The position numbers and the translations under genes are program-made. This document shows positions 9,673 through 43,696 of a DNA stretch of 64,000 nucleotides, piece by piece (the first letter of the stretch is position 1; every line of letters begins with the position of its first letter). The notes under the pieces were generated by a model that worked only from the letters and a program-made list of their open reading frames with translations, did not search any database and had not been told where the DNA came from. Source of the stretch: an uncultured Syntrophobacterales bacterium (GTDB lineage Bacteria; Desulfobacterota; Syntrophia; Syntrophales; UBA5619); the NCBI GenBank assembly GCA_903928915.1, contig CAIYSL010000061.1, positions 1 to 64,000 of the forward strand. Reading direction: 5' to 3'.

Positions 9673-10127
9673 CGCAGGAAACGGCCCTGGGGCTGACCAG
9701 CGAGGATCATCAGAAGGCGTTCACGGAGGTCGCCTTCCTGATCGACATCTTCACCTCCACGATCGACACGATCATGGGGGGATCGACGGCATCGGTCGGG
9801 CGCATGGCGGGACGCGATACGGCGAAGAAGTATCCGCTCCACCTGGAGAACCCGTCGCTCGCCGAGGCCCTGGAGGTGATCGCCCGCCGCATGCAGGCGG
9901 GGTTTGCCCTGGCCCTCGAGGGTGAGGGGGCAGACGCGACCATCCGCTTCGACCGTTGCATCCTGCGGGATGTCTGCGAACTGCGGGGTATCCCGCCGGG
10001 GGGGGCGATGTGCAGGCTGTTCCATGCCTATTTCGACGGGATCGTCAACGAGCTGATCAGCCGGCCGGTAAAATCGGAGATCATCGCCTGCGGGGGGCAA
10101 TGCCGAACCAGCGTGAAAGTCCAGTAG
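9669..10127 (+). CDS. V4R-like three-Cys protein 2 (hydrogenase operon)
   Basis: A 152-aa paralogue of the protein at 6526-7053. Shared cysteines are Cys97, Cys115 and Cys145; the 97-115 spacing of 18 is identical to 106-124 in the paralogue, and the third spacing is 30 versus 31. It has extra Cys103 and Cys141. The C-terminus SEIIACGGQCRTSVKVQ matches the V4R-type closing strand. It begins inside the ferredoxin stop codon and its 3' end overlaps the protease gene by 28 nt. No function can be assigned; the pair flanking the hydrogenase-ferredoxin genes suggests a hetero- or homodimeric accessory unit. Confidence 0.7.
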   Translation: MTQETALGLTSEDHQKAFTEVAFLIDIFTSTIDTIMGGSTASVGRMAGRDTAKKYPLHLENPSLAEALEVIARRMQAGFALALEGEGADATIRFDRCILRDVCELRGIPPGGAMCRLFHAYFDGIVNELISRPVKSEIIACGGQCRTSVKVQ

Positions 10128-10636
10128 ACCCCGGCGCCCGGGCCGCGGCGCTCGTGGCCTGCATCGGGAACGAGCTCGTCGCCGACGACGCGATCGGCTA
10201 CGAGGTGTATCAGCGCCTCCGGCGGATGGCGCTGCCCGGCGAGACCCGGGTCGAGTTTGTCGGGGTGGGGGGGCTGGCGCTTCTGGATCTTCTGAAAGGC
10301 GACGAACGGCTGCTCGTCACGGTCGATGCAGTCCAGCTGGGGGCCGCCGCCGGGACGATCCACCGCCTCTCCTGGGACGAGCTCCCCGCGGCCGCGGCCT
10401 GCGCCGTATCGGTGCACGGCATCGGGCTTCGGGAGACGGTAGAAATCGGCAGGATCCTCTACCCCGAGCTGATCCCGCCGGTAATCCGGCTGGTCGGCGT
10501 CGAGGGACGGTGTTTCGACCGGATGCGCGCGGCGATGACTCCGGCGACCGCAGCGGCGGCCGACGGGGCCGCGGAGGCGGTCCGGCAACTGATTACCACG
10601 CATGAGGTGCAGTCAGATGGATACGGTACGGCATGA
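10100..10636 (+). CDS. hydrogenase maturation protease (HyaD/HycI family)
   Basis: A 178-aa endopeptidase that cleaves the C-terminal tail of the hydrogenase large subunit after nickel insertion. Family marks are the N-terminal ACIGNELVADDAIGYEVYQRL with the metal-binding Glu/Asp, FVGVGGLALLDLL, TVDAVQLG and HGIGLRETV. Start at 10100 (ATG preceded by a G-run) lies inside the V4R-like gene 2; the frame upstream of it is a shadow. It overlaps the receptor gene by 20 nt. Its presence supports the large subunit being processed into an active Ni-Fe enzyme. Confidence 0.85.
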   Translation: MPNQRESPVDPGARAAALVACIGNELVADDAIGYEVYQRLRRMALPGETRVEFVGVGGLALLDLLKGDERLLVTVDAVQLGAAAGTIHRLSWDELPAAAACAVSVHGIGLRETVEIGRILYPELIPPVIRLVGVEGRCFDRMRAAMTPATAAAADGAAEAVRQLITTHEVQSDGYGTA

Positions 10637-12227
10637 CAGGGAGTCTGCGCAGGCATCGGTGACGGCGACCGAAGAGATCGCCCGGCTCGCCGAGGCGATG
10701 ATGAACGGCCGTCTCGACGAACGGGGCGACCCGGCCCGGTTCGCCGCGGAAGATGCGAAGCTGATCGGCTTGGTCAACGGGATGCTCGACTCGCTCGTGA
10801 GCCCGCTCCGCCTGGCCGCCGGCGCCATCGAACAGATCTCCCGCGGGATGATCCCGGCGTTCGTCGTCGACGATTACCGGGGCGAGTACAACGACCTCAA
10901 ACGGAACCTGAACGTCCTTTTGGCCACGCTGTACGGGATGCACAACGAGACGCAGAATCTGATCACCAGCATCACCGAGGGCAAGCTCCGCACGCGGGGC
11001 AACGATTGGGACTTCGACGGTATCTGGCGGGACCTGATCGGCGGGGTGAACGGAACTCTGGACGCGGTCATCGATCCCGTGAACGAGGCCAGCACGGTCC
11101 TGAGCCGCCTGGCGAGCTACGACCTGCAGGCCCGCATGCGGGGCAAATACCGGGGCGAGCATGCGGTGATCAAGAAGGCCATGAACGGGACCGCAGAATC
11201 GCTCCATGCGGCAATCGCCCAGGTCGCCGAATCGGTGGGCAGCGTGACCGAGGTCGGCAACCGCATCGCCCGGAGCAGCCGGGCGGTCGAGCAGGGGGCC
11301 ACCGAACAGGACCGCCAGATCTCCGAGGCCTCGAACAACCTGAGCATCATCACCGAGAGCTCCGCCCGGATGGCGGAGAATACGGCAGACGCCCAGCGCA
11401 GCGCCCAAAGCTCCGTCGAATCGATCACGACCGGCAAGGAGACGATGGAGCGGATGCTCGCCGCGATGCTGGAGATCCGCTCCGCCGCGGACAACACCGT
11501 GACCATCGTCCAGGAGATCGACGCGATCGCCAAGGAGACCGAACTGCTGTCGTCGAGCGCCGGCGACAAGGCGGTGAAGATCCGCTCTTCGGCGGGCGGA
11601 TTTGCGGTGGTGGCGGGCGAGATCCGCAAGCTCTCGGCCCGGTCCCGGGAGGCGGCCAAGAGGCTGGACGACTTCGGGGGGCGGTTCCACACCGGCTCCC
11701 AGGAGAACGGACTGGAGGCCCTCGAAGCGATGAAGAAGGAGTTTGCCGCCATCATCGGGGACCTCAGCAACGTGGCCCTGGTCTCGCATTACCTCGGCCT
11801 GAATGCCGCCACCGAGGCGGCCCACGTGGAAGTGGCGGGGGACAGTTTCGAGGGGTTGACCGAGCAGATCCGCCAGCTCGCCCTGCGCGCGACCACCGCC
11901 GCCAAGAAGACCGGGGAGCTGATCCGGTGCTCCGTCGAGAATGCCCGCAAGGGGGAGTCCCTCTCCCAGGAGATCGACGGCCAGCTCGCCGTGGCCGTAC
12001 AGGGGGGGGAGTCGATCAGCCGGTTGACCGAGGAGATCACTCTCGGCAGCCGGGAACAGGCCAGCCGGCTCGACGAGATCAGCGGCGCCGTCGCGCAGAT
12101 CAACGAGGTGACGCGGCAGAACGCCGAGAGCGCCCGCGAGTCCGCCGCCGCGGCAAAGGCCCTCGAACAGGAAACCCTGAAGCTCTCCCGGATGGTGAAC
12201 AAGTTCCAGCTCGGCGGTGCCAGGTAA
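10617..12227 (+). CDS. soluble poly-HAMP methyl-accepting chemotaxis-like protein with duplicated tip
   Basis: A 536-aa protein without transmembrane segments. Residues about 20-200 form four HAMP-like repeats (for example AMMNGRLDERGD..., SITEGKLRTRGNDW...). Residues 200-536 are an MCP signalling coiled coil. Two stretches resemble the kinase-binding hairpin tip: 303-345 (ending GGFAVVAGEIRKLSARS) and 386-430 (LGLNAATEAAHVEVAGDSFE then TEQIRQLALRA). Neither is fully canonical: the first lacks NLLALNAAIEAA and the second lacks GRGFAVVADEVR. The C-terminus AVAQINEVTRQNAESARES is typical. The ATG at 10617 has GAGG upstream. No cheA or cheW is nearby; output may go to the adjacent GGDEF protein. 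Confidence 0.8.
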   Translation: MDTVRHDRESAQASVTATEEIARLAEAMMNGRLDERGDPARFAAEDAKLIGLVNGMLDSLVSPLRLAAGAIEQISRGMIPAFVVDDYRGEYNDLKRNLNVLLATLYGMHNETQNLITSITEGKLRTRGNDWDFDGIWRDLIGGVNGTLDAVIDPVNEASTVLSRLASYDLQARMRGKYRGEHAVIKKAMNGTAESLHAAIAQVAESVGSVTEVGNRIARSSRAVEQGATEQDRQISEASNNLSIITESSARMAENTADAQRSAQSSVESITTGKETMERMLAAMLEIRSAADNTVTIVQEIDAIAKETELLSSSAGDKAVKIRSSAGGFAVVAGEIRKLSARSREAAKRLDDFGGRFHTGSQENGLEALEAMKKEFAAIIGDLSNVALVSHYLGLNAATEAAHVEVAGDSFEGLTEQIRQLALRATTAAKKTGELIRCSVENARKGESLSQEIDGQLAVAVQGGESISRLTEEITLGSREQASRLDEISGAVAQINEVTRQNAESARESAAAAKALEQETLKLSRMVNKFQLGGAR

Positions 12228-29568: not shown

Positions 29569-29964
29569 TCAGCGGTCCTGGGGGTAGCCGGCCTTTTCGT
29601 CGAGGACATAGATCAATTTTACCAGGACGCATGTTTCGAGATACTCGATGTTGATGGGCTTGGTGATGTAATCGTACGCCCCCAGCTCTATCAACCTGCT
29701 GCCCAGTTCTTCATCGACGACTGCCGTGACCATGATGACGCCGATGCGGGGATCGATCTTCTTGATCTCTTTGAGCGTGTCGATACCGCCCATCCCCGGC
29801 ATCATTATGTCCAGCAGCACGATGTCGGGTTTCGTTTCCTTGACCCTTGCGATTGCCTCGGCACCGTTCAGGGCCGTTTCGACCTCGTGCCCTTTCGCGG
29901 TCAGAAAACTCTGCAGGAGCCGCACGACTTCGACTTCATCATCGACAACCAGAATTTTCCCCAT
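29569..29964 (-). CDS. stand-alone response regulator receiver (CheY-like)
   Basis: A 131-aa receiver domain without an output domain. DD at residues 8-9, the phospho-acceptor Asp in DIVLLDIMMPGMGG, Thr in IMVTAV and Lys in YDYITKPINIEYLE are all present. It follows the 1304-aa kinase gene by 3 nt and is presumably its phosphorylation target. The output must be through protein interaction. Confidence 0.92.
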   Translation of the reverse strand: MGKILVVDDEVEVVRLLQSFLTAKGHEVETALNGAEAIARVKETKPDIVLLDIMMPGMGGIDTLKEIKKIDPRIGVIMVTAVVDEELGSRLIELGAYDYITKPINIEYLETCVLVKLIYVLDEKAGYPQDR

Positions 29965-29967
29965 ACT

Positions 29968-32900
29968 TCATCTCCTTTGCTCTGCTATGCTTTCATCCTC
30001 GTCCGTCGTGATCGGGATTTCGAACATGAAGGAGGCCCCCCCCCATTCGTTGTTCTCCGCCCAGATCCGACCGCCGTGATTCTGGATGATGCCGAAGGAT
30101 ATGGATAGTCCCAGCCCTGTCCCCTTGCCGGCATCCTTGGTGGTGAAAAAAGGTTCGAAGAGCTTCCGCATGTCCTGCTTGCGGATGCCGGTTCCGGTGT
30201 CGGCGATCGTGACCCGCAGGAACATATTCCGCCCGATAACGGTTCCGTGATCGATCGTGATCCGCAGAACCCGTTCCTGCCTGCTCTCCATTGCGGAGAC
30301 CGCATTATCGAACAGGTTCATGACGACCTGTTCGATTTTCTGCATGTCCATGACCGTCTTCGGCAGGTCCGGCGTATGCCGGACATCCGTCTTGATGCCG
30401 TTCATCTTAAGCCGCGGCCGGTACAGCGTCAGGACATGATCGACGACCGCGGCGATGTCGCCCGCCGCAGTACCCGTTCCCTTGACGCGGGCCGCACGCT
30501 TGAGATTATCGGCGATGGTAACGATGCGGTCGATCTGCTCCATGCAGACGGTCATCTCCTGCTTGGCCTGCGCTGAAATCTCGCTTTCTCTCATCAGAAT
30601 CTGCAGTGCCAGGGAGATGATGTTCACGGGGTTGAGGATTTCGTGGGCCACCCCGGCTGCCAGCCGTCCTATGGCAGCGAGTTTATCAAACTGGAGCAGA
30701 TAATCCTGGGCTTTCTGCAGCTCTTCCATGGCCTTGACGCGATCGGTGATGTCGATGATCGCCCCGCGGATACCCATGACTACGCGCTGCCGGATGATCG
30801 GGCTGACATAGATCAACCCGGTGAAGGTAGTCCCGTCTTTCCGGAGCAACTTGTACTCGAGGGACGATCTTGACGCCCCGTCCATCACCTTCCACGCATC
30901 CTTCTCCAGCCTCGCCCATTCCTCGGGCAGGAAGAATTGGCGTCCGTCCATGGCTATAATCGGATCCCCGGCCGTATACCGGAAGGTTTCCAGGGCGGTT
31001 TGGTTGAAGGAGGTGATTCGCAGGGCGCCGTCGGCTTCGAAAACAGAAATAGGTAAGAATTCCACCAAGTCCCTGTACTTCTCCTCGCTGTCCCGGAGCG
31101 ACTTCTCCGTAGCACTGAGGTCTTTGAACAGCTGGGAATTGGCGATCGCGCCGGCAATCTGCGCCCCGATGCTCTCCGCCATATTCAGCAGCCCTTCGTC
31201 GTACAGGTCCTTTTCCTTCGACCGGAAGACCAGTAACGCGATTACCTTGTCCCGGGAGATCAGGGGAACGGCCATCAGGGAACGCAAACCCGCCCGCAGC
31301 GCATGGATGAACTGGGGGAATTGCTCGCCGGCCTGTCCGTCGTCCAGATTGAGGAACATGCCCTTCCGCGCACGGACGATCGCCGCGCTGAAGGACTGCT
31401 GAAAGGGAATCCTGGCCCCCTGCCGCCGCTCGGGGATATCCGTTCCGGACACATAGGCGATCACCAGGGCATCCTCCTCCTGGTGTATCAGGGTGATCAT
31501 GAGGTTGTCGCAGGGAATGAGCTTCCGGGCCTCCGTCACGAACCGCTCGTACACCTCCTCGATGTCCAGCGTGGAACTGATTATCCGCCCGATCTCGGCG
31601 ATGATCACCTTCTCGCCAGCCAGCCGCTCGGCGATATCCTGGTTCCGGCGGAGTTCCTCTTCGGCCCGTTTGCGGCCGGCGATGTCTTCGGCCACGATCA
31701 TGTTGCGCGTCGGCGTTTCCCCGGGCTTCCAGAGCGGCGACACGGTGATATTCACCCAGACGCTCTCTCCATCCCTCCGGAGGTAGCGCTTCTCCATGCT
31801 GTAGTAGCCGATTTCCCCGGTCCGCAGCATGCGTGTTTTTTCCCGGTGCAGTTGGAGGTCCTCCGGATGGGTGATCGCCGTGAACGTCGTGGCCAGCATC
31901 TCTTCCTCGGTTCTGCCGAGGAGTTCGCAAAACCGCCTGTTGACGGTAACGAACCGGCCGGTCTCCATGATGATCTCTGCGACGCCCACCGCGGCCTGCT
32001 GGACCAGGCCGCGGAACCGCCCCTCGCTTTCCCGGAGCGAATCTTCCGTCCGCTTGAGGTCATTATAAAGCTGCGCATTGGCGATGGCGCCGGCAATCCG
32101 CGCCCCGATCCTCTCCGCCAGGCGGAGATCCCGCTCGGTGTAGGCGTTCGGCATTTTCGATCGGAAGTGCAGGCCGCCGATTACTTCGTCCCGCGCGATC
32201 AGGGGGACACTCATGAACGAGCGTATCCCCGCCTGAAAGGAGGATACGGACGTGGAATACTGCCTTGCAAAGTCATCGACGCCCGTTGGATGGAAGAGCA
32301 TGCCGGTTCTGGTGCGTGCGAGCGCCTCATTCGCCGACCCCCGCGCGGGGAAAGACACTCCCGGTACCCGCCCGGGAACGGGTAATCCGAAAACGTAAGC
32401 GGTGGTTATGGTATCCTGATTATCGTCATTCACGGTTATGCTGAGTCTGTCAAAGGTGAGCAGTTTCCGGGTCTCGGCGGCGAATCGCTCGTACACCTCG
32501 TCGATGTTCAGGGTGGAACCGATCACCCGCCCGATCTCGGCGAGGAGGGCCATCTCCTGCTCCGCCCGTTTCTGCTCGGTGATGTCGCGCGCCGAAGCAA
32601 GTGCGCCGACGACCCTCCCCTGTTCGTCCTTTCGTCCCCGGCACCACCAGGCCAGCAGCCGCTTCTCCCCATCCCGGCGCCGCTGCCAGCTTTCCAGATA
32701 AATCACCTCTTCCGAGCCGCTGAAAATAGGCTGCACGGCATCGTAGGTTTTCTGTTCGCCTGCGAAGTAGAACGCGGCGTCCTTCCCGATCACATCCGCT
32801 CCGAAGAAATCCCTGCCCGGCTGATTGGCCCAGGTATAGGTCTTGCTGCCGTCCACCTCCATGATGATGTCCGGTATGGACGCGAGCAGGGATTCCTGGC

Positions 32901-33882
32901 GGGCGGAAATCCTCCGCAGCGCCGCTTCCACGCGCGTGCGTTCGGTGATGTCGCGGATGATCATGCTCGTCTTTGCGTTGCCGTCGCGATCCGTGAAGAT
33001 GACGGAGGAAATCTCGCCGGGAAACGATACACCGTCTTCGCGGACAAAGGTGAGTTCGCCCCGAAACCGGCCGGTTCGCTCCCGCTCGCGTAGCGCCGCC
33101 GCCAGGCGCGGGTCTGTCGGGTCTATCAGTCCGGCCCTGCCGATCCGGCACAGTTCCTCTTCGGTGCGCCCGAAGATCCGGCAGGCCTCGGGGTTTGCCG
33201 CCAGGATGCTTCCGTCCGGCGCAGTGAGCAGGACCGCATCGATGCTGTTGTCAAAGAGCGAGCGGTACCGGTCCTCACTCTCCCGCAGCGTCTGCTCCGT
33301 CCGCTCGCTTTGCAGCCGGTTCACCATCAGCACTCCCAGCAGCACGGTTCCCAGCGGATAGATCGATATCACCGGCAGGGCGATGCGGGAGAGGACCGGC
33401 AGGGCTGTTGCCCAGGGCAGGGTGAGCATCAAAAGCAGCATGGCGAAATGAACCACGATGCCGAACAGGTACAGTTCACGCCAGGAAATATCCGCCAGCG
33501 GCCGACGGCGGACATACCGCCATGCGATTCCGATCGTCCCGGAGGTGAGGATCACCGCGATTCCGGTCCAGGTCCCGGTCCCTCCCTGTAAGAACCGAAA
33601 CGCGGCGGTCGTGGCCATCGCCGTTGCGGTGGCAACCGGTCCGAAAAAAAGGCCGGCTATGCCGAGCAGCACCGATCGCGTATCGAATACGATCCCCTGC
33701 GCGAATTGCCAGGGCGTCAGCATGACGGTGACGGCGACGGCGCCGATGGCAAGCCCGATGGGCACCTGCCAGAAGGGCGACCGGCCCGTACGCCACCGGC
33801 TCGTGGCAAGGTCAAACAGGAAGGCAATTGCCAAAAGCAGCGTTACGTTGTGAACCAGGCTGATAAGGGGTGTACCATCCAT
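29968..33882 (-). CDS. large multidomain sensor histidine kinase (5TM-PAS2-GAF-PAS-GAF-PAS-HK)
   Basis: A 1304-aa membrane kinase. Residues 1-195 hold five or more TM segments with a 5TMR-LYT-like pattern. Then follow PAS (about 205-325), PAS (330-445), GAF (460-620), PAS (630-755), GAF (775-935) and PAS (945-1065). The kinase core has phospho-acceptor His1080 (GVAHEILNPVN), N-box about 1189-1193 (MNLFDNA), G1 box at 1228 (DTGTGI) and G2 (GKGTGLGL). The two GAF domains share repeated wording (IAEIGRxI.STLxI.EVYERF), indicating internal duplication. It phosphorylates the receiver encoded next. The signal is unknown. Confidence 0.9.
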   Translation of the reverse strand: MDGTPLISLVHNVTLLLAIAFLFDLATSRWRTGRSPFWQVPIGLAIGAVAVTVMLTPWQFAQGIVFDTRSVLLGIAGLFFGPVATATAMATTAAFRFLQGGTGTWTGIAVILTSGTIGIAWRYVRRRPLADISWRELYLFGIVVHFAMLLLMLTLPWATALPVLSRIALPVISIYPLGTVLLGVLMVNRLQSERTEQTLRESEDRYRSLFDNSIDAVLLTAPDGSILAANPEACRIFGRTEEELCRIGRAGLIDPTDPRLAAALRERERTGRFRGELTFVREDGVSFPGEISSVIFTDRDGNAKTSMIIRDITERTRVEAALRRISARQESLLASIPDIIMEVDGSKTYTWANQPGRDFFGADVIGKDAAFYFAGEQKTYDAVQPIFSGSEEVIYLESWQRRRDGEKRLLAWWCRGRKDEQGRVVGALASARDITEQKRAEQEMALLAEIGRVIGSTLNIDEVYERFAAETRKLLTFDRLSITVNDDNQDTITTAYVFGLPVPGRVPGVSFPARGSANEALARTRTGMLFHPTGVDDFARQYSTSVSSFQAGIRSFMSVPLIARDEVIGGLHFRSKMPNAYTERDLRLAERIGARIAGAIANAQLYNDLKRTEDSLRESEGRFRGLVQQAAVGVAEIIMETGRFVTVNRRFCELLGRTEEEMLATTFTAITHPEDLQLHREKTRMLRTGEIGYYSMEKRYLRRDGESVWVNITVSPLWKPGETPTRNMIVAEDIAGRKRAEEELRRNQDIAERLAGEKVIIAEIGRIISSTLDIEEVYERFVTEARKLIPCDNLMITLIHQEEDALVIAYVSGTDIPERRQGARIPFQQSFSAAIVRARKGMFLNLDDGQAGEQFPQFIHALRAGLRSLMAVPLISRDKVIALLVFRSKEKDLYDEGLLNMAESIGAQIAGAIANSQLFKDLSATEKSLRDSEEKYRDLVEFLPISVFEADGALRITSFNQTALETFRYTAGDPIIAMDGRQFFLPEEWARLEKDAWKVMDGASRSSLEYKLLRKDGTTFTGLIYVSPIIRQRVVMGIRGAIIDITDRVKAMEELQKAQDYLLQFDKLAAIGRLAAGVAHEILNPVNIISLALQILMRESEISAQAKQEMTVCMEQIDRIVTIADNLKRAARVKGTGTAAGDIAAVVDHVLTLYRPRLKMNGIKTDVRHTPDLPKTVMDMQKIEQVVMNLFDNAVSAMESRQERVLRITIDHGTVIGRNMFLRVTIADTGTGIRKQDMRKLFEPFFTTKDAGKGTGLGLSISFGIIQNHGGRIWAENNEWGGASFMFEIPITTDEDESIAEQRR

Positions 33883-34060
33883 AGGGCGTCCTTCGTGCCG
33901 TCCGGCGGTGCGATGTCTTTCCTGAAGCTTGCCGTAGAGTGTGATGCGGCCGGGGGGGGAATGTTTGGATGATCCTCTGTCCTGAGAAGGTATTGGTATT
34001 CCCGCTGCTTCAGCGTAGCAGATTTTTCACGAGAGTTCCACGGAGAAATTGCAATTGCCC

Positions 34061-35176
34061 TTACAGGCCGTAGGCCTTGTAGCAGGTGCGGCAGAGATCG
34101 GCGAGGGGAGGGGGCGCCTGCTCGGCGGGGACGGGCCGGGCATTCGCGAGCAGATCCAGGATTTCGATCGCCTCGTTCCGGGCCCGCCTCCGCTCCGCAA
34201 AGACCCGCCGGAACTCCCGGTAGGGCTCTTTCTGCCAGATCGCGCGGAACTCCTCATCCCGGACGTTTCCGAAGGCGGTCTGGGGGACGCGGTAGGGTTT
34301 GTTCATGAAGATCCGGGGGATGTCGCCCTTCTTGGGAATCCGCAGGTATGGACAGGGGGCTACCGAGCCGTCGGCGCTGAAGAAGACGTTGTTGGGCGGG
34401 TCGGGTTCGCAGACGGGCACCTCCTGCGCCTTGAGCGGGTATACGGCGACCGGGAGCCCTGCCGCGCTTGCCCGGCGGCGGACCTCATCGAGGACCTCGC
34501 GAAAGGCCGGGGTCGGAGACTCGTGGTAGAAGGCCCTGAGGATGTTGCCGCGCTCGTCGGGGAGATAGTCGAGGTGGCCGAGGGTCATCTGGTCGACCCC
34601 CAGTCTTGCCGCCAGGGGTACGAAGTCCGGGAGGTTGCCCATGGTCAGCCGGGTCATGGGCAGGCTGAGCTTCACGAGCGGCCGGGTCCGGTTCGCCCCC
34701 TTCCTCTCCAGCACGATGCCCCGGACCTGACTCAGGATCCGGTGAAGATCGGACCCGTCCGTATTGGCGCTCGCCAGCGCCGCCGGGGTGGCGTATTCCA
34801 GCGAGATCACCAGTTCGTCCAGCCCGGTTTCCATCAGCTCGCGGGAGAGCTCTTCGGTCAGCAGGGCGCCGTTGGTGGTGAGGTTGGTCAGACAGCCGGC
34901 TTCGTTCGCCCGGCGGAGCATGGCCAGGATGGACTGATTCTCCAGGGGGTCTCCCCACCCCCGGAAGGAGACCCAGCGGACCCGGGGGAACACGGGGGCG
35001 ATCTGCTGAAAAGTCTCCGGCGACATGCTGGCGAAGGTCCACTGTTCCGCGAAGACCGCCCGGGGGCAGATATCGCACTCCAGTGCGCTGTAGGTGGAGG
35101 CCTCGATCTGGAACAGCCCGTACTCCCGCCGGTATCCCCGGAGGAACTTGGCCATGTCCTTGAGAATCGGCATCAC
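34061..35176 (-). CDS. radical SAM/SPASM-like protein with altered CxxxCxxC motif
   Basis: A 371-aa protein with the partial TIM-barrel layout of radical SAM enzymes: FRGWGDPLEN (GGE-like SAM loop), LTTNGALLTEEL and LDELVISLEYATP. A SPASM-like C-terminal Cys set is present (VPVCEPDPP, SVAPCPYLR, LCRTCYKAYGL). The cluster motif reads SALECDIC: Cys34 and Cys37 are present, but the first Cys position is Ser30 (codon AGC, one base from TGC). If real, canonical Fe-S binding is compromised. The start is GTG at 35176 (GGAGG 10 nt upstream) or ATG at 35173. It follows the SDR gene by 53 bp. Confidence 0.75.
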   Translation of the reverse strand: MMPILKDMAKFLRGYRREYGLFQIEASTYSALECDICPRAVFAEQWTFASMSPETFQQIAPVFPRVRWVSFRGWGDPLENQSILAMLRRANEAGCLTNLTTNGALLTEELSRELMETGLDELVISLEYATPAALASANTDGSDLHRILSQVRGIVLERKGANRTRPLVKLSLPMTRLTMGNLPDFVPLAARLGVDQMTLGHLDYLPDERGNILRAFYHESPTPAFREVLDEVRRRASAAGLPVAVYPLKAQEVPVCEPDPPNNVFFSADGSVAPCPYLRIPKKGDIPRIFMNKPYRVPQTAFGNVRDEEFRAIWQKEPYREFRRVFAERRRARNEAIEILDLLANARPVPAEQAPPPLADLCRTCYKAYGL

Positions 35177-35229
35177 GCGGGAACGGCCTCCTGCGGAATG
35201 GGGCGGGCATCGGGCATGCTGCGCTCCTT

Positions 35230-36000
35230 TCAGGCGTGGGCGATCAGGAACTTCACTTCCTTGTCGTCGAAGGAGAGGTATTCTCCGTTGATCCCGTCGG
35301 CCGCCGCGGAGGCGAGATAGAGGATCAGTCTGGCCGGCTCGGCCGGCGTGTGGAGCATCCCCTCCTCCTTGAGCCGGTCGAACATGTCCGTACCGATGGC
35401 CTTGGGGCCCGCCGACCGGATCTCCTCCTGCATCCGCGTATCCATGACCCCGGGGTGAACGGCGTTCACCTGGATGTGGAAGTCCTTGAGTTCCCGGGAA
35501 AGCTGCTTCGTGAACTGGACCATGCCCGCCTTGGCGACCATGTACGGCGTAAGGTTGGGGCGGGGATTCAGCGTGGTCGCTACGTTGATGATCTTGCCCT
35601 GTTTCTTCCCCATCAGCGTCGGCAGAACGGCCTTCGCACAGAGGAACGCCGAGGTCAGATTGACCCGCAGCGTCTCCTCCCAGTCCGCCAGCGAGATCTC
35701 CTGAATGGGGCCGATCGGGCCGCGCGAACCGGCGTTGTTCACCAGGATATCGATCGTGCCGTAGGCGTCGAGGGCCCTCTGCACCAGGCGGTTCACCTCT
35801 GCCTCACGGGAGACGTCGACGGCGACGGCGACGGCCTCCTTCCTGAGCGCCCGCAGTTCCTCTGCCACGTGTTCGATCTCCTCGGCGCTGCGCGCGGCCA
35901 GGACCAGCTTGGCCCCTTCCCTGGCGAAGGCAAGGGCTGTGCAACGCCCCAGGCCCCGGCCTGCCCCGGTGATGATCGCTGTCTTACCCTGCAGTTTCAT
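35230..36000 (-). CDS. short-chain dehydrogenase/reductase
   Basis: A 256-aa Rossmann-fold oxidoreductase. TGAGRGLG (11-18) binds the cofactor, NNAG is present (LVNNAGSRG), and the catalytic Tyr/Lys are in PYMVAKAG. The usual catalytic Ser region reads NVATTLNP, with Thr in place of Ser. Classical SDRs of this type reduce 3-oxoacyl or alcohol/ketone substrates. It is probably co-transcribed with the radical SAM-like gene. A promoter and a palindrome lie upstream. Confidence 0.88.
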   Translation of the reverse strand: MKLQGKTAIITGAGRGLGRCTALAFAREGAKLVLAARSAEEIEHVAEELRALRKEAVAVAVDVSREAEVNRLVQRALDAYGTIDILVNNAGSRGPIGPIQEISLADWEETLRVNLTSAFLCAKAVLPTLMGKKQGKIINVATTLNPRPNLTPYMVAKAGMVQFTKQLSRELKDFHIQVNAVHPGVMDTRMQEEIRSAGPKAIGTDMFDRLKEEGMLHTPAEPARLILYLASAAADGINGEYLSFDDKEVKFLIAHA

Positions 36001-36051
36001 GCCTTCTTCCCGAAGGAGATCGCCCTGATGCCCGGTACTGTTCTGGATGGG

Positions 36052-36071
36052 AAATCGTTCCTAGGCGATTT
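36052..36071. promoter_or_regulatory. palindrome in the SDR leader (possible operator)
   Basis: AAATCG (36052-36057) and CGATTT (36066-36071) are inverted with an 8-bp centre containing CCTAGG. It lies between the predicted SDR promoter and start codon, where a repressor could block elongation. No regulator gene is nearby. Confidence 0.3.
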
Positions 36072-36102
36072 AACTGATGAAAATCAACCGCTACCCGCCT
36101 TG

Positions 36103-36131
36103 AACATAAGGACTGCGGCCATCTCTGTCAA
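36103..36131 (-). promoter_or_regulatory. sigma-70 promoter of the SDR gene
   Basis: On the minus strand TTGACA (36126-36131), a 17-bp spacer and TATGTT (36103-36108). It would give a 5' UTR of about 95 nt. Confidence 0.55.
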
Positions 36132-36194
36132 GGGGATTTTATCGTCCGGGCCGCGGCGGGAACCGCAATCGGAGACGCGGCCGGGCCTGAACGC

Positions 36195-36227
36195 GGAAGG
36201 GGAGGGCATTCTCGCCCCTCCCCTTCC
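36195..36227 (-). terminator. strong hairpin downstream of the 31-codon gene
   Basis: GGAAGGGGAGGG (36195-36206) pairs perfectly with CCCTCCCCTTCC (36216-36227). There is no T-run, so it is a pause, mRNA-stabilising or factor-dependent site. It follows the small membrane-peptide gene by about 40 bp. Confidence 0.5.
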
Positions 36228-36269
36228 TGTAATGCTTTGCGAATGAATGAGTGCAGACCCAACGGGAAA

Positions 36270-36365
36270 CTAAAAAATTCTGACGATCGTTTCGACAATC
36301 GGGTCAACCGTCGCTATCGGAATCGACAGGACGGCCAAGAGTGCTCCGACCAAAATCAGTTTCAT
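36270..36365 (-). CDS. 31-residue hydrophobic membrane peptide
   Basis: A 32-codon frame beginning MKLILVGALLAVLSIPIA and ending in VRIF. It is one hydrophobic helix with a Lys at the N-terminus and an Arg near the C-terminus. AAAGGAG lies 7 nt upstream of the ATG, and a -10 TATAAC (36384-36389) sits just before it. The gene is isolated between a terminator and a hairpin, so it has its own transcript. Candidates are a small membrane regulator or a type I toxin-like peptide; the sequence gives no homology-based answer. Confidence 0.5.
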   Translation of the reverse strand: MKLILVGALLAVLSIPIATVDPIVETIVRIF

Positions 36366-36440
36366 TGCCGTGCTCCTTTCTCTGTTATATTAAGATGATA
36401 TCCCGTTGTTTGGCCTCCCCCCGCTGTGGCCACAAAACGC

Positions 36441-36470
36441 AAAACCCCGTCACAGGTTGCTGTGACAGGG
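36441..36470 (-). terminator. intrinsic terminator after the beta-helix protein gene
   Basis: On the minus strand CCCTGTCACAG and CTGTGACGGGG form an 11-bp stem with one G-U pair and a 4-base loop, followed by TTTTGCGTTTTG. It lies 120 bp after the stop of the beta-helix gene. Confidence 0.75.
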
Positions 36471-36589
36471 CTTGGAGATCCTCTTTCACTTCTCGCGCGG
36501 GGAAGATCAAACTGGGGATATATCCAAGTCGATGGCGGCGTTATACGCCTTTTCCCGGGGATGTCAAGAAAAAAAATTGCTCCTGCCGG

Positions 36590-39445
36590 TCAGTCGACCC
36601 CGGGAAGGCTGGGCAGCCCGTCGAGCATCGTGCCGTCCGCGCTGGCGTTGAGCTGAAACCCCACGACATGCCTGTCCGAGGAGTAGGCGATGTAGGTGGC
36701 GTTCGCGATTCCCGCAGGGAAGAGCGCCTCCACGGTGTTGACCACCTTGGCATAGCCGCCGACAACAAGCTGCCGCGTCGCCGCCGCGGCGCCGGAGTCG
36801 GCATAGGCGGTCAGGGTGACCGAGGCCGGTGCGGCTTCCGTGTTGACAAAGGCGATCCCGGTCCAGCCGTCCCTCTCGATCTTGGCAAACACCCCGGTCC
36901 GTGCGGCGGCCCCGCCGCTGCCCGCGTAGGCGGCAAGTTGGCTGCCGGTGACCGTTCCGAACAGCTCGAACCCGGCGAGGGGGCGCGTGGAGTCGATTCG
37001 GAACCACGCGGTCTCGGCGGGCAGCCCGAGGTCCGGAACCGCGCCGACGAATTTTTCCTTCGCGGCGAGGGCGCGGGTCACGGGGGGAGCGGAGACCCCC
37101 TCGGCGCTGTAGGGGGTTATGGTTATCGTACATCCGAGGTCCGCGGGGTTGTAGGCGACGACCCCCGTCCACCAGCCGTTGCTGTCCACGTGCGGGTAGT
37201 ACAGCGTCGAAACGGTGTCGTCCGTCAGGAGAATTCCATCCAGCAGGCTGCCGCTTCCGTAACTGCCGAACAGCTCCAGCCCGACGATGCCCTGCCCGTT
37301 GGTGATCACCGCCGATTGGATGGCGGGCTGGAGCTGCTGATTCAGCAGGCTTCCGATCGTAAACACCCGGTGCTGGTTGGCGTAAAGCCTGTAGGGAACG
37401 CTCTGCCCGTTGTTGAAGGTGATGGTGAGGTCCTTCGTTGCGGCGGTCGTGTTCACGAGGCTCACCCCGGTCCACCACTGGGCGCTCGAATCGATGTGGG
37501 AAATGAAGATGTCCGCGGTGTTGACCTCCGTTACCGCGGGGACAGCGGCGCGGTACAGTCCCGCCTGGTAGAATTTCGTGTACCCCTGCGCTGCCGTCGA
37601 GGTCGTGGCGAATACGAGGTAGCCGATCTGGGTGTGGTTGGTAAACTCATTCGCCACGGTGATCTCTCTCCGGCCGCGGGCGGGAAGCGTGATCTCCCTG
37701 GCTTCCACGAACCGGCCTTCGTCGCTGAGCCCCCTGAGCGTGCCGACGACGGCTTGATCGCCCGTATTGATGACGGCGATCTCCGTCTGCCAGGGCAGGC
37801 TCGTGTCTACGTGGGGAAAGACGAGGGAGGCGCTGGTGGCCAAGGCCCCGGGCGGACCGGGGGCGGTCCGCCGGCTGTGCGCGTAATCGTCGGAAACGGC
37901 GTTGTCCAGGTTTCCCTCCGGGGCCAGGGGGGGCTGGGGTCGGTCGTTGCCGGCAAAGCGGGGAATCGCGAACACCGGCGTCGCGAAGATGCTGCTGCCG
38001 GGGGCGGGGTGCACATCCCCCTGGGCCGGGTCCCTGAACTGCGGCTGGGTCAGGTTGATGCGGTTGTCCGCCCGCAGCTGGGATGCATTGCAGGTCGCGT
38101 TCGCGGGCTGGCACCCCTGGGCGGTATCCTCCACGCCCAGGGGATGGTCGACGGGGCCGTTCCAGATCAGGTTGCCGCGGATCTGCACGCCGCCATCGGC
38201 ATCGGCGGGGCTGGGAATGTTCGTGCCGGCAGGAGGAGTTGCCGGTCCGAAGATGGTAAAATGGCCCTCCCGGGTCTGGAGCGGGAGGGGGTTGTAAAAG
38301 ATGTTGTTGAAGACCAGGATGTTTCTGTTCGGTATCCATTCGCCCGCTTCTCCGGCGGCCACGGGCCCCCATCCGCCCAGGGTGTGCCGCTGCAGACAGG
38401 CGGCCGCGTTCCCGTCACAACTGCGCCCCCCCTGGCTGAGCAGCAACAGTCCGGCGCCCCGGGGATCGGTGCCGATCCGGTAGAGGGTATTGTAGGCCAG
38501 CAGGATATTGTACCCGCCGCGTACCGCCAGACCGGCATTGACCACGTCGTGCAGGATGTTGTTGATGAACTTGATGTCGTACGCTTCGTAGTGGACCCAG
38601 GGGGAAACCAGGTACTCGAACCCGGTTCCCTGGCCGGCGCTGAACCCGGTTACCCCGCAGTCGTAGATTTCATTCCCGGCGACGGTCAGAGAGGCTGTGC
38701 CGCCTTTGAGGAGCAGGCAGTCGTCCCCGGAATCATGGATGCGGCTGGAGAGAATGTGGCCGTATTGCACAGCCACGAAATCCAGCGGAAACCAGAAGGC
38801 CCCAGACAGGTCGGAATGCTCCACATAGATGTATTGGACCTGATTCACCTTCAAGGTTTCCTGGGGCTGGCGGACCGCCCCGTCGTGGCCGCTCAGGGCG
38901 CAGCCCCGAACCAGGACGTGATTGCTGTCGGCGATGTGGATTACATTGCCGCCCCCTCCATAACCGGGATCGGTGACGACGTCGAGGTTGATGAGATAGA
39001 AGTAGCTTACCCGGTTGATGTTGAGATATCCGTGCAGCCTGACCGATCGCGGACCATCCGCCGCTTCGATGATCAGCGGATATAGATGGGTCCCCTGCCG
39101 TGATTCGATCCACCCGCCGCCCGGCAGATGTCCCTCGGGGTAATCGCCCGGAAGCAGCAGGATCCGGTATCCGCCCGTGGTAAAGGGTGTGCCGGCCGGG
39201 ACGCGGTTCAGGGCTTCCGTCAGGGTTCGCAGGGGCTGCGATCGGGAGGCGCCGCTTAGGCTGTCGTTGCCGAGCACCGGGTCGACCCAGAGGTCGGTGA
39301 CCACGGGCGAACCGATGTCGTAGTACCCGGCGCCCGACGCCTCGGCGGCAGCAAACAGCAGTACCGTGAACACCCAGATCGCCCAATGCAGCTTCCGCCG
39401 GGACCGGTCGCCGGGCATCGAGGCCGCCGAGATCGCTCCCCCCAT
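36590..39445 (-). CDS. secreted right-handed beta-helix protein with four C-terminal repeats
   Basis: A 951-aa exported protein. The signal peptide has hydrophobic core WAIWVFTVLLFAAAEA with likely cleavage near residue 39. Residues about 45-500 are a parallel beta-helix of the DUF1565/pectate-lyase-like kind, starting DLWVDPVLGNDSLSG. Many short strand repeats follow, such as ILSSRIHDSGDDCLLL, FINNILHDV and VFNNIFYN. The C-terminal 410 residues contain four repeats of about 100 aa opening FPHVDTSLPWQTEIAVIN, SHIDSSAQWWTGVSLVN, YPHVDSNGWWTGVVAYN and KIERDGWTGIAFVN. It is probably a surface polysaccharide-binding or -cleaving protein. GGGAGGT precedes the ATG. Confidence 0.8.
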   Translation of the reverse strand: MGGAISAASMPGDRSRRKLHWAIWVFTVLLFAAAEASGAGYYDIGSPVVTDLWVDPVLGNDSLSGASRSQPLRTLTEALNRVPAGTPFTTGGYRILLLPGDYPEGHLPGGGWIESRQGTHLYPLIIEAADGPRSVRLHGYLNINRVSYFYLINLDVVTDPGYGGGGNVIHIADSNHVLVRGCALSGHDGAVRQPQETLKVNQVQYIYVEHSDLSGAFWFPLDFVAVQYGHILSSRIHDSGDDCLLLKGGTASLTVAGNEIYDCGVTGFSAGQGTGFEYLVSPWVHYEAYDIKFINNILHDVVNAGLAVRGGYNILLAYNTLYRIGTDPRGAGLLLLSQGGRSCDGNAAACLQRHTLGGWGPVAAGEAGEWIPNRNILVFNNIFYNPLPLQTREGHFTIFGPATPPAGTNIPSPADADGGVQIRGNLIWNGPVDHPLGVEDTAQGCQPANATCNASQLRADNRINLTQPQFRDPAQGDVHPAPGSSIFATPVFAIPRFAGNDRPQPPLAPEGNLDNAVSDDYAHSRRTAPGPPGALATSASLVFPHVDTSLPWQTEIAVINTGDQAVVGTLRGLSDEGRFVEAREITLPARGRREITVANEFTNHTQIGYLVFATTSTAAQGYTKFYQAGLYRAAVPAVTEVNTADIFISHIDSSAQWWTGVSLVNTTAATKDLTITFNNGQSVPYRLYANQHRVFTIGSLLNQQLQPAIQSAVITNGQGIVGLELFGSYGSGSLLDGILLTDDTVSTLYYPHVDSNGWWTGVVAYNPADLGCTITITPYSAEGVSAPPVTRALAAKEKFVGAVPDLGLPAETAWFRIDSTRPLAGFELFGTVTGSQLAAYAGSGGAAARTGVFAKIERDGWTGIAFVNTEAAPASVTLTAYADSGAAAATRQLVVGGYAKVVNTVEALFPAGIANATYIAYSSDRHVVGFQLNASADGTMLDGLPSLPGVD

Positions 39446-40805: not shown

Positions 40806-41861
40806 TCAATCCGTGATCGCCCGCTGCCGGAGCAGATGATCCGCCAGCACAATCGCCACCATGGCTTCGCAGACCGGGACGATCCGCGGGATGACCGAGG
40901 CGTCGTGCCGGCCGCCGATCGTCACGACCGCGGGCCGGCCCTGTGCGTCCACGGTCTCCTGGGGGCGGGCGATTGACGGGATGGGCTTGCAGGCGACCCG
41001 CAGGACGATCTCGGCGCCGGTGGTGATCCCGGCGAGGACCCCCCCGGCGTTGTTGCTCGTGAATCCGCCGGGGCAGATCGGGTCGTTGCAGGCGGAGCCC
41101 TGCATCCGCGCGGCCGCGAACCCCGCGCCGATCTCCACCCCCTTGACGGTTCCGATCCCCATCAGCGCCCCTGCCAGGTCCGCGTCGATCTTGCCGAAGA
41201 CCGGCTCGCCCAGGCCCGGCGGGCAGCCCTGAACCCGGATCTCCACGATCCCGCCGAGGGTGTCGCCCGCGGCCCGCGCCTCCGTGAGGCGCGCGAGCAT
41301 CTCCTGCTCCGCCCCGGGGTCGGGACAACGCAGCGGACTTGCCGCTGCCGCCTCGGGGGAACCGGGCTGTGCGACCACGCCGCCCAGCTCCCGCGTCCAG
41401 GCCTTGACGACGATCCCGGCCCGGCCGATCACCCGGCGGGCCACGGCGCCGGCGGCCACCCGGGCCGCCGTCTCCCGGCCCGAGGCGCGGCCGCCGCCCC
41501 GGTGGTCCCGGATCCCGTACTTGGCCTGGTAGGTGATGTCGCCGTGGCCCGGCCGGTACAGGTCGCGCAGGCCATCGTAGGCGTCGGCGGTGGCATCGGC
41601 GTTGCGGATCAGAAGGCTGATCGGCGTTCCGGTCGTCTTCCCCGCGAACAGGCCGGAGAGGATCTCGACTCTGTCCGCCTCCCGGCGGGGGCTTGCCGAC
41701 GGGATCAGGCCCGGCCGCCGCCGGTCGAGCTCGGCTTGGATATCGGCCGCGGCAATGGCGAGCAGGGGCGGGCAGCCGTCGATCACGGCCCCGGTGGCCG
41801 GGCCGTGCGACTCTCCCCAGGTGGTGACCCGAAACAGGACGCCGATTGAGTTTCCGGACAT
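40806..41861 (-). CDS. aroC: chorismate synthase
   Basis: A 351-aa FMN-dependent enzyme converting EPSP to chorismate. Signatures are VTTWGESHGPATG near the N-terminus, GDITYQAKYGIRDHRGGGRASGRET in outline, and the C-terminal VTIGGRHDASVIPR. Family length is normal. AGGAG precedes the ATG, 12 nt after the aroK stop. The stop lies at the edge of the MITE-like element, so the insertion just spared the gene. Confidence 0.97.
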   Translation of the reverse strand: MSGNSIGVLFRVTTWGESHGPATGAVIDGCPPLLAIAAADIQAELDRRRPGLIPSASPRREADRVEILSGLFAGKTTGTPISLLIRNADATADAYDGLRDLYRPGHGDITYQAKYGIRDHRGGGRASGRETAARVAAGAVARRVIGRAGIVVKAWTRELGGVVAQPGSPEAAAASPLRCPDPGAEQEMLARLTEARAAGDTLGGIVEIRVQGCPPGLGEPVFGKIDADLAGALMGIGTVKGVEIGAGFAAARMQGSACNDPICPGGFTSNNAGGVLAGITTGAEIVLRVACKPIPSIARPQETVDAQGRPAVVTIGGRHDASVIPRIVPVCEAMVAIVLADHLLRQRAITD

Positions 41862-41873
41862 GGTTCGCTCCTC

Positions 41874-42437
41874 TTAGCGGTTTTCTCCGGGATCGGCACT
41901 GATCCCCGCCGTCTCCGGGAACCGCTCCCGCAGGGCAGTGCGGATCGCCCCCACCACCGCCGCGACGGGGATGCCGGTCGTGTCGACGACGATATCGGCG
42001 AGCTGCCGGTACAGCGGCTCCCGCTCGGCCAGTACCGCCCGCATCTCCTGTACGCTCGGCTCGCCCGTGAGCGACGGCCGTTCGGTCCCGCGCTCTTTGT
42101 CCCGGACCATCCGGCCGGCGATCGCCTCGGGACTGGCGGAAAGCCAGATGAAGAACCCCTTGGCCTTGAGGTCCGCCACGTTTTCGGGGGCGCAGACCGT
42201 GCCGCCTCCCAGGGAGATGACCCCGCCGTCGGTGCCGGCAAGCTCCCGGACCACCTCCCGCTCGGCCGCGCGGAAGGCGGGCCAGCCATTTTCGGCCACG
42301 ATCCGGGAGATCGGGCGGCCGGTCCGCTGTTCGATCATCTCGTCCGTGTCGAAGAAGGGGGCCCCGAGCTCCTCGGCCAGGCAGCGGCCGGCGGTGCTCT
42401 TGCCGGTGCAGCGGAACCCCATCAGGATCACGTTCAT
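41874..42437 (-). CDS. aroK: shikimate kinase
   Basis: A 187-aa P-loop kinase phosphorylating shikimate. Walker A is GFRCTGKSTAG; FFDTDEMIEQRTG carries the metal/substrate Asp, and SLGGGTV is the shikimate-binding GGG motif. The lid region has RPSLTG. The start at 42437 overlaps the aroA stop (ATGA) with GGAGGGG upstream; the frame before it is a shadow. Confidence 0.95.
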   Translation of the reverse strand: MNVILMGFRCTGKSTAGRCLAEELGAPFFDTDEMIEQRTGRPISRIVAENGWPAFRAAEREVVRELAGTDGGVISLGGGTVCAPENVADLKAKGFFIWLSASPEAIAGRMVRDKERGTERPSLTGEPSVQEMRAVLAEREPLYRQLADIVVDTTGIPVAAVVGAIRTALRERFPETAGISADPGENR

Positions 42438-43696
42438 GAAAGCCCCTCCAGGGCCTGCCAGAACCCGGGGAAGGATTTCCCGACGCACCCCTCTCCCTCG
42501 ATCTTCATCCCCGGGACCGCCAGCCCCAGGACCGCGAAGCTCATGGCAATCCGGTGGTCGTCGTAGGTGGCGATCGTCGCGCCGCGGGGGGCTCCCCCGG
42601 TGACGGCGATCCCGTCGGGGAGCTCCTCGGCGGCAATCCCGGTCTTTCGCAGTTCCTTCACCATCGCGGCCAGCCGGTCGCTCTCCTTGATCCGGAGGTG
42701 GGCCACGTTGCGGATCAGGGTCCGGCCCGGACGGAGCGCCGCGAGCACGGCCAGGGTCGGCACCATGTCGGGCATTGCGGCCAGGTCGAAGGTCATCTCC
42801 CCGGGCGGGAGTTGACCGCCGACGACCTCCACTGCGCCCTCCCCCCGGGCGACCCGGCAGCCGAGCCGCTCCAGGAGCGTGAGGAACCCCGCGTCCCCCT
42901 GGCCGGAACGCGGGTTGACGTTCTCCACCCTGATGCGGCCCTTGGTGAGCGCCGCGGCGAGAAAGAAGTACGAGGCGCTGGAGAGGTCCCCTTCGACCCG
43001 GTACTGCCGGCCGCGGTAGCGCTGGCCGCTCTTTACCACGTAGCGGCCGGCCCCGTCCAGGGCCACGTCGACGCCGAAGGCCCCCATCGTCTCCACGGTG
43101 AGCGCCACGTAGGGGAGCGACGGGACCCGCCCCTCCAGGGCGATGGTCACCTCGCCCGCCGCGTACGGAGCGGCGATCAAGAGCGCCGAGACGTACTGGC
43201 TGCTCTCGATGTCCCGCAGCCGCAGCTTTGCCCCCCGCAGGCCTCCGCCGCGGACCGTCACCGGCGGAAAGCCGCGGTCCCCCTCGGTTTCGCAGCGGGC
43301 CCCGAGTGCCGCCAGGGCGTCGATGAGGGGCTTCAGCGGCCGCTGCCGCAGCCGCGGGGTCCCGGTCAGGACGGCCGGGCCGTCGCCGAGCGCGGCCACC
43401 GCGGTGAGGATCCGCATCGCCGTTCCGTTGTTCCCCAGCCGGATCTCCCCCGCCGGGCGGGCCAGCTTCCCGCCGGTTCCGCGGATGGCCATCTCCGTGC
43501 CCGTCGTCCCGATGCCGGCCCCAAGCGCCGCGAGCGCCCGGCCCAGCAGTTTTGTGTCCTCGGCCACGAGGACCTCCGTCAGGCGCGACTCCCCCTCGGC
43601 GAGGGCCGCGATCACCATCGCCCGCTGGGTGTAGCTCTTCGATCCGGGGATCCGGACCGTCGCGTCGAGCGCTTCGCGCGGCGTTATCTCAATCAT
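42434..43696 (-). CDS. aroA: 3-phosphoshikimate 1-carboxyvinyltransferase (EPSP synthase)
   Basis: A 420-aa enzyme joining shikimate 3-phosphate and PEP. The N-terminus IPGSKSYTQRAMVIAALA contains the substrate-binding Lys, LGNNGTAMRILTAV is the PEP-loop motif (NGT), and the C-terminal IKESDRLAAMVKEL and DDHRIAMSFAVLGL are canonical. The stretch is complete and 9 bp separate it from aroE. Length and motif variants would be needed to place it in glyphosate-sensitive or -insensitive classes. Confidence 0.96.
   Translation of the reverse strand: MIEITPREALDATVRIPGSKSYTQRAMVIAALAEGESRLTEVLVAEDTKLLGRALAALGAGIGTTGTEMAIRGTGGKLARPAGEIRLGNNGTAMRILTAVAALGDGPAVLTGTPRLRQRPLKPLIDALAALGARCETEGDRGFPPVTVRGGGLRGAKLRLRDIESSQYVSALLIAAPYAAGEVTIALEGRVPSLPYVALTVETMGAFGVDVALDGAGRYVVKSGQRYRGRQYRVEGDLSSASYFFLAAALTKGRIRVENVNPRSGQGDAGFLTLLERLGCRVARGEGAVEVVGGQLPPGEMTFDLAAMPDMVPTLAVLAALRPGRTLIRNVAHLRIKESDRLAAMVKELRKTGIAAEELPDGIAVTGGAPRGATIATYDDHRIAMSFAVLGLAVPGMKIEGEGCVGKSFPGFWQALEGLS

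Follow-up and report, generated by a model that had tools for sequence, protein, structure and literature searches.

Mycofactocin-coupled short-chain dehydrogenases (SDRs; TIGR03971) are functionally linked to a radical-SAM/SPASM protein, and the radical-SAM proteins BtrN and BlsE are known as active enzymes. Pseudo-radical-SAM/SPASM proteins have already been catalogued (TIGR04347, pseudo_SAM_Halo, whose name marks a radical-SAM-like family without SAM function), and non-Cys cluster ligands are also known. In the twitch domain of BtrN, four cysteines fully ligate a single [4Fe-4S] cluster (PMC6231123). In the thuricin CD system, TrnD with mutated SAM-cluster cysteines still lets TrnC make product (PMC12093266), and in the two-protein Dph1–Dph2 system, too, the radical-SAM-type cluster of one subunit is non-essential or regulatory (PMC11048331). 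Both systems differ from the one described here in that the partner is another radical-SAM protein rather than an SDR, and in that the cysteines are naturally present. Searches of the open-licence PMC literature, judged by titles and abstract openings, turned up neither a natural SxxxCxxC radical-SAM protein nor the pairing of such a protein with an SDR.

The locus analysed here lies in a stretch of 64,000 nucleotides of contig CAIYSL010000061.1, from an uncultured Syntrophobacterales bacterium; we refer to this whole stretch as the window. Positions 34061–35176 of the minus strand encode a putative radical-SAM-fold, twitch-type protein of 371 amino acids, recognized from its open reading frame and Pfam matches. 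The gene starts with GTG, and a Shine–Dalgarno-like AGGAGG can be read ten bases 5' of it (35187–35192, minus strand). The cluster motif of the protein is IEASTYSALECDICPR, and the stretch around Ser30 reads FQIEASTYSALECDICPR. Codon 30 (35087–35089, minus strand) is AGC, which places Ser in the column of the first cluster cysteine; Cys34 and Cys37, the CxxC remnant of the SAM-cluster motif, follow at 35066–35077 (minus strand). The initial annotation had drawn attention to the absent first cysteine and to the single base, AGC vs TGC, that accounts for it. Both observations are borne out, as the reading frame is confirmed and canonical members carry TGY at this column.

The window protein scores 26.8 bits against PF04055 (Radical_SAM), below the gathering cut-off of 29.5, and 41.5 bits against PF13186 (SPASM), above the cut-off of 21.5. 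It is the weakest, and last, of the 59 PF04055 matches in its own genome. All of the other 58 carry the three cysteines, 54 of them as CxxxCxxC and four with other spacing (judged by eye on printed stretches), and given this the missing first cysteine is more than chance.

No nearby NCBIfam family has its cut-off reached by the window protein. The best library matches, over most of its length, are TIGR04317 (tungsten cofactor oxidoreductase radical SAM maturase) and TIGR04311 (radical SAM/SPASM putative metalloenzyme maturase), with scores far under the cut-offs (119.3 vs 380 bits and 107 vs 400, respectively). Unlike these families, the window protein lacks the first cysteine and is paired with an SDR. 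Similarity to TIGR04347 is weak (1.2e-10; 41.2 bits, cut-off 525); compared by the name and description of that family rather than by its sequences, the window lineage differs in showing intermediate states and in having an SDR partner. BtrN and BlsE were the sole PDB sequence relatives at the thresholds used. The window protein resembles BtrN in its four auxiliary cysteines; in the alignment, the position that is Ser in the family profile is Cys in BtrN. Radical-SAM structures, headed by BlsE (E 3.5e-8), were also the best Foldseek matches of an AlphaFold2 model built from eight sequences, a low-confidence query that lends weak support to a partial TIM-barrel fold. Because its pLDDT was low (mean 55, and below 50 at the motif), the model was not used for geometry.

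Searches covered 396 genomes of a 'relatives' set, 155 genomes of the order and 395 of the phylum, with thresholds set to drop most paralogues. The gene family was found in 11 of the 396 relatives, a lower bound because the searches were limited to sampled genomes: the window's own genome, three of the same genus, three of the same family and four from outside the order. The genus search (seven genomes) gave three orthologues, 52–54% identical and with the same Ser. A contig search with the single window protein as query gave no match, and a contig search with alignment A1 gave seven loci, all from seven genomes already counted and hence not added again. Three further genomes exceeded the threshold, two (G171 and G208) with a canonical outgroup and one (G350) with a paralogue; a paralogue was also found in the family genome G003.

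Eight of the 11 members have SxxxCxxC (SCC), one, from genome G180 (locus L068), has CxxxCxxC (CCC), and two, from G012 and G011 (loci L069 and L070), have SxxxSxxS (SSS). CxxxCxxC is also the motif of the canonical outgroup (loci L071 and L072; 36% identical) and of more distant paralogues, including one (L002) from the window's own genome. Across the 13 family and outgroup rows (alignment A3), position 30 is thus Ser in 10 and Cys in three; all 13 match TIGR04317 and TIGR04311, and all match PF13186 at E ≤ 0.01. At L068 a canonical radical-SAM/SPASM gene (10080–11168, in G180:C3), whose product is ~29% identical to the window protein, adjoins the sole CxxxCxxC member and converges with it. 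In L071 (9939–14537) and L072 the outgroup gene has CGGC, Nitro_FeMo-Co and two ferredoxin-fused MinD/ParA-type ATPase genes as neighbours; this metal-cofactor setting may be a clue to the ancestral role.

One explanation of the missing cysteine, raised by the initial annotation, is a sequencing error, and the change of only one base is what would be expected of it. Seven orthologues from other assemblies, 52–57% identical to the window protein, share the Ser at this column, and in two others all three cluster columns are Ser; the codon is AGY in all eight SxxxCxxC members. Sequencing error was rejected on these grounds. Because the orthologues share Ser30 while the canonical outgroup and the paralogues are CxxxCxxC, it is a conserved feature of the clade. 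Nor was the first cysteine displaced in the orthologues, as had been envisaged: an alignment check found no compensating cysteine unique to the Ser-bearing clade. The only other widely shared Cys column, C95, occurs in the canonical members as well and is absent from two SxxxCxxC members (L073 and L074). A decaying pseudogene, the related possibility, would have to be reconciled with intact reading frames, with the strict SDR pairing described below and with whole-gene dN/dS values, calculated by two methods for five pairs within the Ser clade, of 0.11–0.35. We give next to no credence to either error or decay.

The individual dN/dS values of these close pairs, by the two methods, were 0.24 and 0.35 (L075/L074), 0.19 and 0.19 (the SxxxSxxS pair), 0.27 and 0.34 (L077/L076), 0.11 and 0.16 (L077/L079), and 0.15 and 0.18 (L078/L079). 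In pairs where changes were few, single domains reached ~0.5. The SDR gene gave 0.07–0.22. The radical-SAM-like gene is under purifying selection, and neither it nor the SDR gene appears to be decaying.

We then compared the SAM site and the auxiliary-cluster site in an alignment of 46 distinct sequences, in which the 13 family and outgroup rows were joined by 33 more distant relatives that BLAST had picked out from the fetched loci; L010 (< 60 bits) was dropped, and L037, which has no N-terminus owing to an in-frame stop, leaves 45 rows at the three cluster columns. Thirty-six rows were classed as canonical and 10 as Ser-bearing. The GGE glutamate is present in 36/36 canonical vs 2/10 Ser-bearing rows; Asp replaces it in the other eight, among them the window protein (Asp76 of GWGDP, 34949–34951, minus strand). 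Ser125 of strand 4, which the window protein retains, is found in 36/36 vs 3/10 rows, and Gly or Ser at position 128 in 36/36 vs 0/10. For Arg or Lys at position 139 the counts are 36/36 vs 2/10, the alignment there being uncertain owing to a one-residue insertion nearby in the window protein and L073. Two SxxxCxxC members, L074 and L075, retain both the GGE glutamate and Ser125. GG(E/D)P and TNG are partly kept, TNG being intact in all eight SxxxCxxC members and changed to THG in the SxxxSxxS pair. We take the GGE, Ser125, 128, Arg139 and TNG positions to be SAM-contacting motifs.

The view that the SAM-binding segment is kept therefore fails, since the GGE glutamate is so largely confined to canonical rows and other residues of the SAM site are eroded; in the window protein itself Glu76 has become Asp, and the Gly that follows strand 4 (position 128) and Arg139 are gone. 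At the auxiliary site, Cys256 and Cys275 (34352–34411, minus strand) and Cys362 and Cys365, the C-terminal CxxC (34082–34093, minus strand), are Cys in 46/46 rows. The SPASM-type cysteines noted in the initial annotation are thus indeed present, but as a twitch-like set for one cluster, not as the full seven-Cys SPASM set; the four cysteines with the C-terminal CxxC match the twitch type. The pattern indicates that the SAM site as a whole is relaxing while the auxiliary-cluster site is held.

The main rival to this reading, foreseen by the initial annotation as an alternative ligand, is that the SxxxCxxC members are working radical-SAM enzymes, in which Ser30, water or another side chain would ligate the third iron and SAM would still be cleaved, the SxxxSxxS pair alone being dead. 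It draws on the fact that all 10 non-Cys members have Ser, and no random residue, at position 30, and on the retention of Cys34, Cys37 and an intact TNG throughout the eight SxxxCxxC members. There are also precedents in the superfamily for non-Cys ligands, namely Ser in LipA, Arg in BioB and Asp in PqqE (PMC6231123). The erosion in the Ser clade of the GGE glutamate, Ser125, position 128 and Arg139 speaks against such chemistry, as does the SxxxSxxS pair, which with no cluster cysteine at all retains the same SDR and is under selection of similar strength. On balance we consider Ser-ligated SAM chemistry unlikely. The initial annotation had entertained a dead enzyme, and with regard to SAM chemistry this is supported, because other SAM-site residues are eroded and the SxxxSxxS pair exists; with regard to the gene it does not hold, since the dN/dS values and the constant presence of the partner gene are not those of a decaying gene.

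Even so, all eight SxxxCxxC members keep Cys34 and Cys37 (both are Ser in the two SxxxSxxS members), suggesting that this portion of the motif retains some role in them, perhaps in binding a cluster. A further explanation is that, besides the auxiliary cluster, the former SAM site of these members houses either a cluster or a redox or metal site formed by the CxxC, with a task other than SAM chemistry such as electron transfer or sensing. Classical SDRs, as far as is known, rely on hydride chemistry and present no evident one-electron partner for such a site, and the SxxxSxxS pair does without both cysteines. The invariance of Cys34-x2-Cys37 in eight sequences, seven of them only 52–57% identical to the window's, is what one would predict, but the same eight-row alignment (A5) has 135 invariant positions out of 371 (36%), and for this reason two invariant cysteines are weak by themselves. 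According to PMC10470005, electrons can pass from the clusters of a SPASM radical-SAM protein to a different protein. A non-SAM CxxC site strikes us as improbable.

The direction of change was taken to be from Cys to Ser because the outgroup is Cys and because a tree with paralogues as outgroups places the CCC member from G180 as the sister of the whole Ser group (100/99); a tree of the 13 rows from which the three motif columns were removed leaves the placement of this member open. Codon 30 is TCC in both SxxxSxxS members, as compared with AGY in the SxxxCxxC members. Parsimony gives one change at position 30; because AGY and TCC are two base changes apart, the position changed once or twice, and a second, independent Cys-to-Ser change is possible from the codons. 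Every observed replacement of the three cluster cysteines is Ser. Of the seven amino-acid-changing neighbours of a Cys codon two are Ser; under blind change, the chance of three or four events all yielding Ser would then be ~0.02 to 0.007, which we regard as no more than suggestive.

The cassette's first gene encodes the SDR (256 amino acids; 35230–36000, minus strand; PF00106, E 2e-58) and lies 53 bases upstream of the radical-SAM-like gene. A sigma-70-like promoter match, by consensus only, lies upstream of the SDR gene (36103–36131, minus strand); it is the single match in all of 33700–36500 (0.3 expected), and none was found between the two genes. Downstream of the cassette, on the same strand, are genes for a response-regulator domain protein and a PAS/GAF histidine kinase of 1304 amino acids (29569–33882). 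Elsewhere in the window are a gene for a 951-amino-acid protein with right-handed beta-helix and DUF5719 matches (36590–39445) and a shikimate-pathway cluster of chorismate synthase and EPSP synthase genes (40806–43696).

The SDR gene is directly upstream, on the same strand, in 11/11 family genomes, the CCC and SSS members included; for the window this adjacency was taken from the ORF list and the SDR search, as its row in the flank comparison showed antisense ORFs there. At E ≤ 1e-90 the SDR occurs in exactly those 11 of the 396 genomes that hold the radical-SAM-like family, and the orthologues, in the ten rows of alignment A6, are 68–75% identical to the window's SDR. Within the fetched flanks no other gene is common to all family members, and the canonical outgroup in L071 and L072 lacks an SDR of this kind beside it. 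Across the 11 genomes the distances of the two proteins are correlated (r = 0.92, Mantel p = 1e-4), as is expected of any two genes that travel together; co-occurrence and adjacency are no proof of physical contact. From its patchy spread over families and orders, the cassette seems to move as one unit.

Classical SDRs have a catalytic tetrad that includes a Ser. The window's SDR has the Rossmann SDR domain and YxxxK, with Y153 and K157 invariant in 10/10 rows of A6; Thr142, equally invariant, stands in the place of the catalytic Ser. It matches TIGR03971 at 5e-44 (150.6 bits, cut-off 300) and, unlike the mycofactocin system, has a partner without the radical-SAM motif.

The best reading of these observations is that a radical-SAM protein may be undergoing stepwise conversion to a SAM-independent Fe–S partner of an SDR. 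We put the probability at roughly 60% that the window protein, a radical-SAM-fold protein, no longer cleaves SAM or is on the way to losing that activity, keeps a twitch-type auxiliary Fe–S site and is now the partner of the upstream SDR. Because the gene is conserved in related bacteria beside the same dehydrogenase gene, it is probably neither broken nor the result of a sequencing error, but has taken on a different function. In such a system the N-terminal SAM site would no longer be used for radical chemistry, while the auxiliary cluster would still be assembled. The SDR would carry out NAD(P)-dependent hydride chemistry, and the genetic pairing is consistent with the two proteins sharing a substrate or forming a complex, in which the radical-SAM-like protein might act as a substrate-binding, structural or redox-sensing subunit. 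TrnD/TrnC is a laboratory precedent for a radical-SAM subunit with a disrupted SAM cluster that supports its partner.

A natural CCC/SCC/SSS series inside one two-gene cassette with a fixed partner is unusual. We propose tentatively, accepting that so specific a picture may well prove wrong, that the SDR and the radical-SAM-like protein form an obligate two-gene system caught at the CCC, SCC and SSS stages of SAM-cluster loss with auxiliary cluster and partner fixed, and that the auxiliary cluster, in place of the SAM cluster, would be the working part of a protein that is a subunit of an Fe–S-equipped SDR complex. There is also a warning here for annotation, since such proteins get called radical-SAM enzymes: at E ≤ 0.01, PF04055 picks up every one of the 13 A3 rows. 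The role of auxiliary Fe–S clusters in SPASM and twitch proteins is debated, with the SAM cluster dominating the chemistry. A series found in nature in which the SAM cluster is lost while the auxiliary cluster and the same partner stay separates the two roles, and the CxxxCxxC member can serve as its control.
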